From positions 1 through 44,801 of the forward strand of contig SVJJ01000003.1 in the NCBI GenBank assembly GCA_015069045.1: a stretch of DNA of 44,801 nt, given 5' to 3'. The notes beneath the pieces are model-generated. The model was not told the origin of the DNA, did not search any database, and saw only the letters and a list, made by a program, of their open reading frames with translations. Shown in pieces: positions 5,842-13,856 of this stretch (position 1 is the first letter of the stretch; the number at the start of each line of letters is the position of its first letter). This DNA is from Oscillospiraceae bacterium (GTDB lineage: Bacteria; Bacillota; Clostridia; UBA1381; UBA9506). Made by a program: the position numbers and the translations under genes.

Positions 5842-5954
5842 CAGTGTTTTCCTGTGTATCTCACAAATTGCAAAACCAAATCACTCCAATATAATTGAAG
5901 GATAAGCGTGCAAAACTATCATCCCTATGCTGTTTAACACGTACGGAATAACAT

Positions 5955-6165
5955 CGAAGCAGGTCTTCTGACTCGTACTATATGGAGCATTCACACCGCA
6001 TTTATACATTCAGCCTTCTCAGTTTCCCAATGACTGGCTTTCGCCTGCGAATATATAAACTTCAGTACATACAGCAGCTGTTACTGTTCCGGGTTCTAAC
6101 CGGATTTCCTTTTCACCGACTAAGCCCTTTTGGGCGGAAAATAGCCGACACTTCATGTGAATATG
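5955..6165 (-). promoter_or_regulatory. Cobalamin riboswitch
   Basis: Read leftward, this leader has the cobalamin aptamer hallmarks. There is a GGTGAAA...AAATCCGG core, then CCCGGAACAGTAACAG, a B12-box-like GCCAGTCATTGGGAAACTGAGAAGGC region, and the closing GAGTCAGAAGACCTGC that nearly every member ends with. Some core positions differ from the consensus (AACAGTAACAG where CCGCAACTGT is common). It precedes the ECF transporter operon, so adenosyl- or another cobalamin should switch off uptake. Confidence 0.85.
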
Positions 6166-6178
6166 TAATTTTTCTTAT

Positions 6179-10528: not shown

Positions 10529-10560
10529 AAGGGCTGCAGCATAGTTGCTGCAGCCCTTTT
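10529..10560. terminator. Bidirectional terminator between feoA-like and PHP genes
   Basis: GGGCTGCAGCA pairs exactly with TGCTGCAGCCC (11 bp, TAGT loop) and is followed by TTTT rightward. It lies between two converging genes. Confidence 0.85.
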
Positions 10561-10561
10561 A

Positions 10562-11287
10562 TTACATTATTCCTTTTTTAATTTTTAATGTTTCTATCAG
10601 GCAAGCCCCACTTACTTCCTCTAAGGTAAGGAGGTTTTGCCTTTCATAAATATCCCACAAATAATGAGCATCTGAACTTGTTAATAGCCGATATTGTTCC
10701 AAATAGGGCCATTGTTCCAATACCTGTTCACGTGTTGAGTTTTTTGAAATTTCCAGGGTCGAAAAATTTAAGTCCTCCGGTACCACACCTAAGTTAGAAA
10801 TAATGCTATAAGCATCCTTATCCACATGAGCAGGCATAATTAATCCGCCTAATGAACGGACTTGTGGCACTACATCATAAACTGAACATGTTAAGGCTGT
10901 TGTCAGCAATTGAGATTCATATCCTATAATTTCATCTTTCTCATTCATGTAGGCTTGTTCGCCAAAAATATCCCTTCGATTTTCAATAGGCAAAAAATAG
11001 GGCCGAATATATGTTTCAAAATCTTCCGCCTTGGTAATCGTGGGAAATAAACATACAAAATGAGCCTCTTCAACAGTTTCTACTTCCATACCCGGCACCA
11101 CACAAAGATTCGCTTGTTCGGCACAAGTCATAACAGACCGCACATTGCCTACCGTATTATGGTCCGTCAGCGCAATCATGGATAAGCCGTTGAGAACTGC
11201 CATATTCACAATGTTGTTCGGTGTCATATCCATGTCCCCGCAGGGCGACAGGGCCGAATGAATATGTAAATCACAGGCTATTTGCAT
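10562..11287 (-). CDS. PHP-domain metal-dependent phosphoesterase
   Basis: This 241-residue cytosolic protein has all the main PHP motifs: DLHIHSALSPCGDMD, ALTDHNTVGN, VPGMEVET, MPAHVDKD and SSDAHYLWD. These residues bind a trinuclear metal site in the family. Relatives remove phosphate from nucleotides, histidinol phosphate or RNA ends; the substrate here is not known. It is the last gene of the hydrogenase-like operon and overlaps the preceding DRTGG gene by 10 nt, so translation is probably coupled. Its place in the operon suggests it makes or destroys a signal, which is inference. Confidence 0.85.
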   Translation of the reverse strand: MQIACDLHIHSALSPCGDMDMTPNNIVNMAVLNGLSMIALTDHNTVGNVRSVMTCAEQANLCVVPGMEVETVEEAHFVCLFPTITKAEDFETYIRPYFLPIENRRDIFGEQAYMNEKDEIIGYESQLLTTALTCSVYDVVPQVRSLGGLIMPAHVDKDAYSIISNLGVVPEDLNFSTLEISKNSTREQVLEQWPYLEQYRLLTSSDAHYLWDIYERQNLLTLEEVSGACLIETLKIKKGIM

Positions 11288-11613
11288 TGATTTTGCTCAA
11301 ACAACAGACAAGCCGCCTCATAGGCAGGCAAGTCAGTTTTTAAAACCGTAACTTCTTGCTCCCGGGCTTTTTGAACAGCTGTTGCATCTGCTGTTCTGCC
11401 TTCTACCAACAAAATGCAAGAGGGATCCGTTAAGGCAGCCACAGCCGCTATATTTACATTGCCCTGCACCGTCATCCATACTTGTCCTGCCTCCACACGA
11501 CTCATGGCGAGACTTAAAAGGTCACCAATGTAGCAACCGGTTATCTCCTGACCTAAATCACCTTGGCTAATAATTTCCAGATTGTTTTTTTCTATAAATT
11601 CCTGTACTGTCAT
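11278..11613 (-). CDS. DRTGG-domain protein (second copy in operon)
   Basis: This 111-residue protein has the compact DRTGG-type fold (VQEFIEKNNLEIISQGDLGQEI, CYIGDLLSLAMSRVEAGQVWMTVQGNVNIAAVA, TDLPAYEAACLLFEQN). DRTGG domains often sit with CBS or nucleotide-binding modules and are thought to bind a ligand. ATG 11613 is preferred over 11643 because GGAGGG lies 7 nt ahead of it. It lies between the hydrogenase-like gene (4 nt gap) and the PHP gene (10-nt overlap). It is related in pattern to the first gene of the operon, so the two may form a heterodimer. Confidence 0.75.
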   Translation of the reverse strand: MTVQEFIEKNNLEIISQGDLGQEITGCYIGDLLSLAMSRVEAGQVWMTVQGNVNIAAVAALTDPSCILLVEGRTADATAVQKAREQEVTVLKTDLPAYEAACLLFEQNQCK

Positions 11614-11617
11614 TCTC

Positions 11618-12955
11618 TCACCCTCCGTAATAATCTCGGTCATCCGTTTTAAAGGAACCGGGCATTTCTTCCTCTAAGGCCACCATTTGCCGTGCCAAAT
11701 CCCGCACCTTTTCACGCAGTTTATAAATACAATCCGTTTCTGTAGCAAAGCCACGAACAATATCCTCTGCCAAACTTTTGCAACTAGGTGCCCCACAAGA
11801 GCCACAATCTAATTTAGGTAAGTCATTGTATATACTTTCCATGCGCTCCATTTTCTGCATGGCAATAGCAATATCGTCATCTAAATTAAGTACGTTACGG
11901 TATGATACAGGACTATCCCACTGTAAATCATCCTGCTTAACTGGAATAGGACCCGCTTTTTGACCTTGCTTGCGAAGGGAATCAGCCAATTTTTTAATTT
12001 TTGTTTTAGCAACATAGGTGTTTTCTACATTTAAAGGGCCACCAACACAACCGCCAGCACAGGCTAATGCTTCTACAAAATCTATATCCAGCTTTTCGTC
12101 ATCTTCAATTTCTTCTAACAGACGAACCACATGGTTAATCCCATCAACCGCCACATATTTTTCAGTATCCAGAGCGCTGGCCTCTCCACCTGAGCTCGCC
12201 CACCGCACACCTGAAAAGGCACAGGTGGACAGTTCGTCCACGTGTTCAATTTTTCTCAAAATGGGTAACAACTTTAAATAAATCTCTTTGATAGACAAAA
12301 CCCCATCAATTAACGGTTTGGAGCTTCCCAAAGGATTTCGTACACTTGTTGCTTTTGCAGCACAGGGAGAAATAAAAAATACCCCTATTTCCTTAGGCTT
12401 GAGTCCTGTTTTTTCAACCGCCTCCTGTCGTGCTGCCTTAGCCGCTGCTTCCATTGGCGAAATCAGGGGCAGAACATGGCTGATTAAGTTCGGAAAACGT
12501 ACAGAAATCAATCGCACTACTGTTGGGCATGCCGAATTAATGACCGGTCTTTTCAGCTTACCTTCAGCCAGCAGTTGTTTTGTATACTCTGTAATGGTTT
12601 CTGCTGCTTTGGCAACCTCGTAAATATCATCAAAACCCAAATATTTCAGCCCGGTCAAAATAAGATTAATATCTTTTAAATTGTTAAACTGACCATATAA
12701 TGTGGGTGCGGGCAACGCAATCTTGTATTTAAACCTAAAAATATCATCTAACCGCTCTGTTACGGCACTTTTAGCATGGTAGGGACACACACGAATGCAT
12801 TCGCCGCAGTCAATACACCGTTCCTTAATAATTTTTGCCTTCCCATCACGTACACGAATGGCTTCAGTAGGACATCCTTTAATGCAGTTAATACATCCCT
12901 TGCACCTCTCCCGGTCTAAACGAACAGAATGGTAGTAGGTTCCTTTGTTGTTCAT
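11618..12955 (-). CDS. Divergent FeFe-hydrogenase-like protein, probably a redox or H2 sensor
   Basis: This is a 445-residue iron-sulfur protein. Residues 18-57 hold two ferredoxin clusters (Cys 18, 21, 24, 28 and 47, 50, 53, 57). The H-cluster domain follows. Motif L1 is SACP (Cys143), L2 is SPCAAK (Cys198) and L3 is LACAGGC (Cys299, Cys303), so all four H-cluster cysteines are kept. The proton-relay Cys (299 in CpI) is Ala142, and the two conserved Met are Ser196 and Leu297. A third cluster motif (Cys 384, 387, 392, 409) ends the protein. Neighbours are signalling domains and no maturases or electron-transfer partners. This fits the group of putative sensory FeFe hydrogenases; real H2 turnover is doubtful. 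Confidence 0.85.
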   Translation of the reverse strand: MNNKGTYYHSVRLDRERCKGCINCIKGCPTEAIRVRDGKAKIIKERCIDCGECIRVCPYHAKSAVTERLDDIFRFKYKIALPAPTLYGQFNNLKDINLILTGLKYLGFDDIYEVAKAAETITEYTKQLLAEGKLKRPVINSACPTVVRLISVRFPNLISHVLPLISPMEAAAKAARQEAVEKTGLKPKEIGVFFISPCAAKATSVRNPLGSSKPLIDGVLSIKEIYLKLLPILRKIEHVDELSTCAFSGVRWASSGGEASALDTEKYVAVDGINHVVRLLEEIEDDEKLDIDFVEALACAGGCVGGPLNVENTYVAKTKIKKLADSLRKQGQKAGPIPVKQDDLQWDSPVSYRNVLNLDDDIAIAMQKMERMESIYNDLPKLDCGSCGAPSCKSLAEDIVRGFATETDCIYKLREKVRDLARQMVALEEEMPGSFKTDDRDYYGG

Positions 12956-12981
12956 ATGTAGCCACTCTCCCTTTTGCTGAC

Positions 12982-13410
12982 TTATCTAAGCCGAATCACA
13001 AGAGTTACGGTTGTCCCATGACCAACCTCCGATTCAATAGATAGCTCGTCAGAATATTTTTTCATATTAGGCAAACCCATACCGGCACCAAAACCAAGCT
13101 CACGTGCCTCATCCGTAGCTGTCGAAAATCCCGCCTGCATAGCTTTTGCAATATCAGGTATGCCGGGGCCCTTATCTCTAAAAACAATGGTAATAGTATC
13201 GGAGGTGATGGTTACATCTGCCTCTCCGCCTTTCCCATGAATAATGGTATTAATTTCACCCTCGTACATGGATATGGCTGCCTTACGAATAATTTCAGGG
13301 GCAATGCCCAACTGTTTCAAAACCTTTTTAATATTGCTGGAAGCTTGACCGGCAATAGTAAAGTTATTGCCGTCAATGGGGTATTGTAGTGAAATTGTTT
13401 GTTCGGCCAT
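12982..13410 (-). CDS. HATPase_c protein of the RsbW/SpoIIAB anti-sigma type
   Basis: This 142-residue protein is a lone GHKL ATPase domain, with the Mg/ATP box YEGEINTIIHGKG, DKGPGIPDIAKAM (G1 box), FGAGMGLPNMKKYSD (G2 box) and HGTTVTLVI. It has no sensor or His-phosphorylation domain, so it resembles serine kinases that bind sigma or anti-sigma partners. AGGGGTG lies 8 nt before the ATG. It follows the first DRTGG gene by 3 nt and precedes the hydrogenase-like gene by 26 nt. It could pass on the state of the hydrogenase-like sensor by phosphorylating a partner; no such partner is in the window. Confidence 0.82.
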   Translation of the reverse strand: MAEQTISLQYPIDGNNFTIAGQASSNIKKVLKQLGIAPEIIRKAAISMYEGEINTIIHGKGGEADVTITSDTITIVFRDKGPGIPDIAKAMQAGFSTATDEARELGFGAGMGLPNMKKYSDELSIESEVGHGTTVTLVIRLR

Positions 13411-13413
13411 AGT

Positions 13414-13761
13414 TTATTCACCCCTGCCGCCAAGCCCCTTTTGATATAGCTCTCCGCAAGCAATATATAAAGGGAATTCAGTTGTCATAACAGTAATACC
13501 CATACTCTCTGCCAACTCAAGCACCGATGCCTGAGGCACTTTTCCACGAACAAATACGATGGTATTAATATCCATCATTTCTGCTGTACGCACAACTTGC
13601 GGATTGGCAAGACCGGTGAGCAACAGCGCTTGATTTTTTACAAAGGCTAAAACGTCGCTCATCAAATCACACCCACAGGCAGATTTCACTTCAATTTCCT
13701 CCCAGGGTGCTTTGGTCAAAATTTTTGCATGTAAAATTTCACTGACCTGCTTTAGCTTCAT
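13414..13761 (-). CDS. DRTGG-domain protein (first gene of hydrogenase-like operon)
   Basis: This 115-residue protein starts MKLKQVSEILHAKILT. It then has CGCDLMSDVLAFVKNQALLLTGLANPQVVRTAEM and EFPLYIACGELYQKG, a DRTGG-type pattern shared with the fourth gene of the operon. ATG 13761 has AGAGGG 8 nt upstream; the longer reading from 13815 has no ribosome binding site and would cover much of the leader. It opens the five-gene leftward operon 60 nt after a good promoter. Cys residues in CGCD are absent from the second copy and could touch a cofactor. Confidence 0.75.
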   Translation of the reverse strand: MKLKQVSEILHAKILTKAPWEEIEVKSACGCDLMSDVLAFVKNQALLLTGLANPQVVRTAEMMDINTIVFVRGKVPQASVLELAESMGITVMTTEFPLYIACGELYQKGLGGRGE

Positions 13762-13827
13762 CGTAAAATCCCTCTCTTTTCGTAAATTTTCTGTGGTTAC
13801 AACAGCAAGCATCACATTTTTATTGTT

Positions 13828-13856
13828 ATTGTATCATGAATATATGTATTCGTCAA
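13828..13856 (-). promoter_or_regulatory. Promoter of the hydrogenase-like operon
   Basis: Minus strand TTGACG (13856-13851), 17-nt spacer, TACAAT (13833-13828). Predicted start near 13821. Confidence 0.65.

Follow-up and report, generated by a model that had tools for sequence, protein, structure and literature searches.

The window analyzed here is a stretch of 44,801 nucleotides from contig SVJJ01000003.1 of an Oscillospiraceae bacterium (GCA_015069045.1), and it contains an operon of five genes that encode a DRTGG protein (DRTGG1), a lone ATPase (HATP1), an [FeFe]-hydrogenase-like protein (HydS), a second DRTGG protein (DRTGG2) and a PHP-domain protein (PHP). By its defining sequence features, HydS is a group D (M2e) 'putative sensory' [FeFe]-hydrogenase. 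We read the operon, with a probability of roughly 40%, as a dedicated local H2/redox signaling module that would act on the ferredoxin/NAD+ hub via a serine kinase and a phosphoesterase. The observations that support this reading are the family hallmarks, the intact catalytic residues, the near-obligate co-inheritance of the module genes and their linkage to hydABC or Rnf. Control of HATP1 by HydS, and the phosphorylation itself with its direction and target, are predictions from sequence.

HydS matched the Pfam profiles Fe_hyd_lg_C (114 bits), Fer4 (twice) and PF04060 FeS (44.2 bits), and its fold model (mean predicted local confidence, pLDDT, 89) matched [FeFe]-hydrogenases with Z scores of 25-36. 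A reading made earlier from the sequence alone (the sequence-only reading) had assigned four H-cluster cysteines and three substitutions, and alignment to the D. desulfuricans hydrogenase and to relatives bore these out: C143/198/299/303 are the H-cluster ligands, Ala142 occupies the position of the relay Cys, and Ser196 and Leu297 occupy the two Met positions. The N-terminal [4Fe-4S] cysteines are C18/21/24/28/47/50/53/57, and a C-terminal cluster motif, CX2CX4CX16C (C384, C387, C392 and C409), had been overlooked. All sixteen cluster cysteines are retained at 97-100% in 92 relatives; of these, 90 have Thr or Ser at position 196 and 76 have Ala at position 142. Position 297 is variable, as the equivalent position was also found to be by the authors who described TamHydS of T. 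mathranii (PMC8163306). Every hallmark of group D was thus present, namely the N-terminal clusters, the H-domain, a C-terminal cluster without PAS, the lost relay Cys and Met353 replaced by Ser/Thr. Group C (M2f) does not fit, as no PAS match was obtained in HydS and the protein ends about 35 residues past its C-terminal cluster; nor does catalytic group A, given Ala142/Ser196/Leu297 and a TIGR02512 score of 104 bits vs a cut-off of 406.

The sequence-only reading had presented the active site as remodelled, but the Ala/Ser/Leu site is not in itself new because it repeats the published pattern of TamHydS, a group D/M2e protein with Met353 replaced by Ser, Met497 by Leu, Cys299 lost and a C-terminal Cx2Cx4Cx16C motif (Land et al., PMC8163306). 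The proposal of a putative sensory HydS whose output is not established agrees with the group D hallmarks and with the accessible literature, including a 2026 paper on TamHydS that describes partners as unknown (PMC13104023). TamHydS turns over H2, slowly, so production of H2 by the purified protein would not refute a sensor role, as had been supposed. By analogy, HydS may be a slow H2-converting protein, and for such proteins a sensory role has been proposed. H2 also alters the secondary structure of TamHydS (PMC13104023).

The description of the lone ATPase as 'anti-sigma type' was right only in part. HATP1 matched HATPase_c at 50.6 bits and, as aligned to 1til, has the residues of a predicted GHKL serine kinase, with the N-box Glu and Asn, the G1 box and the G2 box; E50, N54 (N box), D79, G81, G83, G110 and G112 are present in 100% of 91 relatives. 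Against the anti-sigma-F model TIGR01925 it scored 62.7 bits vs a cut-off of 135, whereas the true SpoIIAB of the same genome scored 199.9. HATP1 is SpoIIAB-like and not SpoIIAB, because its score lies far below the curated cut-off. The kinase residues are also retained in modules without HydS, position 132 excepted.

The other three proteins were assigned in the same manner. PHP matched its Pfam domain at 33.6 bits (cut-off 26.4), and H8, H10, H43, E68, H76, H154, D206 and H208 are conserved at 99-100% across relatives, the catalytic residues remaining intact in HydS-less modules as well. The DRTGG matches, at 21.1 and 21.2 bits, fall slightly below the PF07085 cut-off of 25.2. Fold modeling, which among the DRTGG proteins covered DRTGG2, gave a model (pLDDT 86) with the DRTGG fold (2ioj, template modeling score 0.75; 3l2b, 0.70; E 1e-5 to 9e-5). 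The model resembles AF1212 and the CBS-DRTGG region of a clostridial pyrophosphatase and, more remotely, part of HPr kinase. In one locus (L011) HATP1 is fused to two CBS domains, and this fusion and the pyrophosphatase-like fold of DRTGG2 fit nucleotide-dependent regulation. With the likenesses of PHP, they suggest that regulation may be adenylate- or phosphate-linked. An invariant Ser of the DRTGG proteins is kept at 99-100%. Binding of an Fe-S cluster by two cysteines of DRTGG1 was considered and dropped, these cysteines being only 82-84% conserved.

Comparison of gene order over Clostridia, as the sequence-only reading had proposed, showed that the five genes travel together. Of the 95 HydS-containing loci that we assembled, 14 came from genome contigs and nearly all others from a set of 342 genomes drawn from class Clostridia. 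The order DRTGG1-HATP1-HydS-DRTGG2-PHP was conserved on the same strand in 86 of the 95, and the median gaps between genes ranged from -4 to +15 nucleotides. M2e-level HydS was found in 160 of the 342 genomes, that is, in nearly half, and the HATP1 profile was positive in 161. The two were jointly present in 157 genomes and jointly absent from 178 (phi 0.96); this coefficient counts genomes rather than independent events, yet single families (e.g., f2) include both genomes with the pair and genomes with neither. A contig end interrupts all three HydS-only cases and two of the four HATP1-only ones. None of the 51 tested genomes without HydS and HATP1 encodes PHP. In two genomes PHP is missing from the HydS operon but encoded elsewhere, and one genome (G032) has HydS and gave no PHP match. 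These data show near-obligate co-inheritance of the module genes.

The module is also linked to genes of electron exchange. In 60 of 102 loci it is followed by the hydABC operon of a bifurcating hydrogenase, usually in the order NuoE, HATP2 (a second GHKL ATPase), a thioredoxin-like ferredoxin, HydB and HydA, and in 2 further loci this operon lies on the opposite strand. Some genomes have the module inserted between NuoE and HATP2. In six loci the module and HATP2 are followed directly by rnfCDGEAB, and in four by NuoE-HATP2-ferredoxin-HydB without HydA and then rnf, the Rnf subunits having been confirmed by NCBIfam. Three genomes (G290, G192 and G244) have an Rnf-linked module without HydS and encode HydS elsewhere, which in G290 means at a distance of about 1 Mb within one contig. 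In split operons the break falls at any of three points, and in G009 and G019 PHP, or DRTGG2 and PHP, stays with hydABC. That HydS is retained, unlinked, where the module sits at Rnf, and that two of the split operons leave PHP with hydABC, both count in favor of the proposed signaling module.

Several further arrangements were observed around these linkages. HATP2 accompanies the module at both hydABC and Rnf (L144, 10332-10895; L048, 9773-10324; L155, 11192-11743) and may therefore be a sixth component instead of a hydrogenase subunit. In L105, L111, L114, L115 and L163, NuoE-HATP2-ferredoxin-HydB without HydA stands directly upstream of rnfCDGEAB and is apparently a NuoEF-like unit coupled to Rnf. 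In L079, L081, L083 and L085 the module adjoins pyrimidine genes, including one for a PyrK-like electron-transfer protein (assigned by eye from sequence). Near-perfect Rex operators (e.g., TTGTTAAATCATTAACAA) lie upstream of DRTGG1 in L133, L126 and L124. Sites within two mismatches occurred in 7 of 100 upstream regions, vs 1.2 expected in shuffles, and none was present in the window; Rex is therefore not a general control of the module.

In the mechanism that we propose, HydS would report H2 or the supply of low-potential electrons through the states of its clusters, as H2 binding and turnover by its T. mathranii relative suggest. Electron transfer to the C-terminal cluster is not assumed, because that cluster of TamHydS is not reduced by H2. 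HATP1, as an anti-sigma-F-like serine kinase, would be the transducer, and the DRTGG proteins may be its adaptors or substrates, their invariant Ser being one candidate phosphoacceptor and no more than that because it is possibly only structural. PHP would hydrolyze a phosphate bond and so reset or relay the signal. The output would be local, on the ferredoxin/NAD+ hub (HydABC or Rnf), and not through a sigma-factor switch. Several results weigh against this signaling module. TamHydS is catalytically active and, as said, H2 leaves its C-terminal cluster unreduced (PMC13104023); HydE and HydG gave no match above cut-off in 31 genomes that carry HydS; and in 30 of the 102 loci, many of them cut by contig ends, the stretch read contains no hyd or Rnf genes. 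The operon of the window's own genome is itself unlinked to hydABC, with the break between PHP and NuoE and a complete hyd operon on contig 16.

The output might instead be transcriptional, with HATP1 serving as the anti-sigma-type kinase of a partner switch like those of SpoIIAB or RsbW, and HydS setting hydABC or rnf expression through a STAS protein or regulator encoded elsewhere. SpoIIAB and RsbW are the solved structures nearest to HATP1, which shares with them GHKL-family membership by sequence and the catalytic N-box Glu and Asn, and TamHydS was reported beside an AraC-type regulator (PMC8163306). HATP1 differs from them, however, in scoring less than half the SpoIIAB cut-off and in having no dedicated STAS or sigma partner. 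The STAS or sigma partner that the sequence-only reading had suggested looking for did not appear: the STAS proteins of the genome are only SpoIIAA, next to SpoIIAB, and a SulP-like protein of 548 amino acids, the size of a transporter, and no sigma, STAS, SpoIIE/phosphatase 2C or DNA-binding gene recurs around about 100 modules. We consider transcriptional control unlikely.

It is likewise improbable that HydS functions chiefly as an enzyme, whether an auxiliary hydrogenase of low rate or a redox valve, with neighbors that are assembly or repair factors for HydABC or Rnf (e.g., a chaperone-like GHKL ATPase and a hydrolase of the PHP type). TamHydS does interconvert H+ and H2 (PMC8163306), hyd operons enclose module genes, in some cases with NuoE ahead of the module, and one genome (G205) retains HATP1, DRTGG2 and PHP at a NuoEF-Rnf operon although no M2e HydS was found there. 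Throughout the family, however, the relay Cys is missing and Ser/Thr replaces Met353, and the SpoIIAB-type N-box Glu and Asn are kept in 91 of 91 HATP1 copies. We hold it to be quite improbable that a sigma-independent kinase/phosphoesterase module with HydS as input directly controls the HydABC/Rnf hub and that, in the approximately 31 HydS-bearing genomes without recognizable HydE and HydG, the H-cluster, lacking its diiron subsite, serves as an Fe-S redox sensor. Post-transcriptional control of hyd or rnf messages by a PHP acting on nucleic acid is very unlikely: endonuclease Q was the best match of the PHP profile among solved structures, with a 5'-3' exoribonuclease lower, but these matches are at superfamily level over about 100 residues, and nucleoside-bisphosphate phosphatase and CehA-type hydrolases match about equally well; phosphoesterases are also among the solved relatives.

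The maturases HydE, HydF and HydG, whose co-occurrence with HydS had been proposed as a check, are all encoded in the window's own genome. Among 163 HydS-positive genomes, 36 gave no HydF match, and 31 of those also lacked HydE or HydG above cut-off (G057, G290, G198, G229, G340 and others); scoring for HydF covered no more than five candidates in each genome, and for HydE and HydG it covered all. Most of the maturase-less HydS genomes encode a group A HydA (PF02906, about 326-355 bits), and two are single-contig genomes; a few maturase-less species were mentioned in a 2011 paper (PMC3226654). In addition, the group A HydA of bifurcating operons has TSCSPGW where TSCCPxW is found elsewhere, with Ser at an H-cluster ligand Cys (L048, 5743-7485, and 13 others).

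Parts of this system have been described. Group D HydS is already known from the literature, as is its closeness to hydABC and a kinase (PMC3561251, PMC8163306). TamHydS shares with HydS its domain order without PAS, the lost Cys299, both Met replacements, the CX2CX4CX16C motif, an adjoining histidine-kinase-like ATPase and a group A hydABC in the genome. It differs in its setting, with hydABC downstream and an AraC-type gene alongside, whereas the window's operon has hydABC on another contig and no adjacent regulator. The module also resembles genes of C. thermocellum, Caldicellulosiruptor and others, in which an M2e gene lies about five loci from the bifurcating hydABC with a kinase between them and was proposed to be regulatory; the accessible part of that source makes no mention of DRTGG, PHP or Rnf linkage (PMC3561251). 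The group C (M2f) proteins TmHydS and HfsB of Thermoanaerobacterium (PMC11837493) resemble HydS in a non-Cys relay position, a C-terminal [4Fe-4S] cluster and catalytic-hydrogenase neighbors, but they have PAS and, in the hfs operon, the serine phosphatase HfsC, whereas the window's module has no PAS and combines a kinase with PHP. Our search of the open-access literature found no account of the five-gene DRTGG/PHP module, of its almost obligate co-inheritance or of a link to Rnf, and nothing relevant on DRTGG with hydrogenase or with Rnf. An earlier description in the subscription literature is possible, and we do not claim priority.

The operon itself is real. Open reading frames, Pfam matches and a promoter scan confirmed the five-gene minus-strand arrangement with one promoter that had been proposed, including its coordinates, gaps, order and residues, and the unit runs from a promoter through the five genes (13815 to 10562) to a strong terminator, with addA upstream on the same strand and feoA convergent. 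The TTGACG-17-TACAAT site is the sole good promoter on the minus strand and precedes the first gene; the number of promoter-like sites is no higher than chance. DRTGG1 probably starts at ATG 13761, behind a GAGAGGG ribosome-binding site, and DRTGG2 at the internal ATG 11613, because homologues start there; with the latter start the intergenic gaps are -10 to +26 nucleotides. Elsewhere in the window, a cobalamin riboswitch (60.6 bits) was found on the minus strand at 5941-6170.

Features of the HydS operon, with positions in the window
Feature	Position	Strand	Remarks
Promoter, sigma-70 type TTGACG-17-TACAAT, extended -10	13828..13856	-	Consensus match only, 10/12
DRTGG1 protein, 115 amino acids from ATG 13761	13414..13761	-	Longer open reading frame begins at GTG 13815; D-x-x-S motif with its D and S nearly invariant
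HATP1, lone GHKL ATPase, SpoIIAB-like	12982..13410	-	Kinase residues E50, N54, D79, G81 and G83 invariant
HydS, group D (M2e) [FeFe]-hydrogenase, 445 amino acids	11618..12955	-	Two N-terminal [4Fe-4S] clusters, H-domain, C-terminal CX2CX4CX16C cluster
DRTGG2 protein, 111 amino acids from ATG 11613	11278..11613	-	Longer open reading frame begins at 11643; invariant D41, S44 and N64
PHP-domain metal-dependent phosphoesterase	10562..11287	-	Conserved metal-ligand residues present
Intrinsic terminator, 13-bp stem	10529..10558	-	Between the operon and convergent feoA

The locus is an ordinary member of group D, and its value is that it makes the question of HydS output testable. Co-inheritance over the 342 genomes gives a short list of candidate partners, namely HATP1, DRTGG1, DRTGG2, PHP and HATP2. 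The alternation between hydABC and Rnf points to a process that may be regulated, the exchange of electrons among ferredoxin, NAD and H2, which sets the H2 yield in gut and fermentation bacteria.

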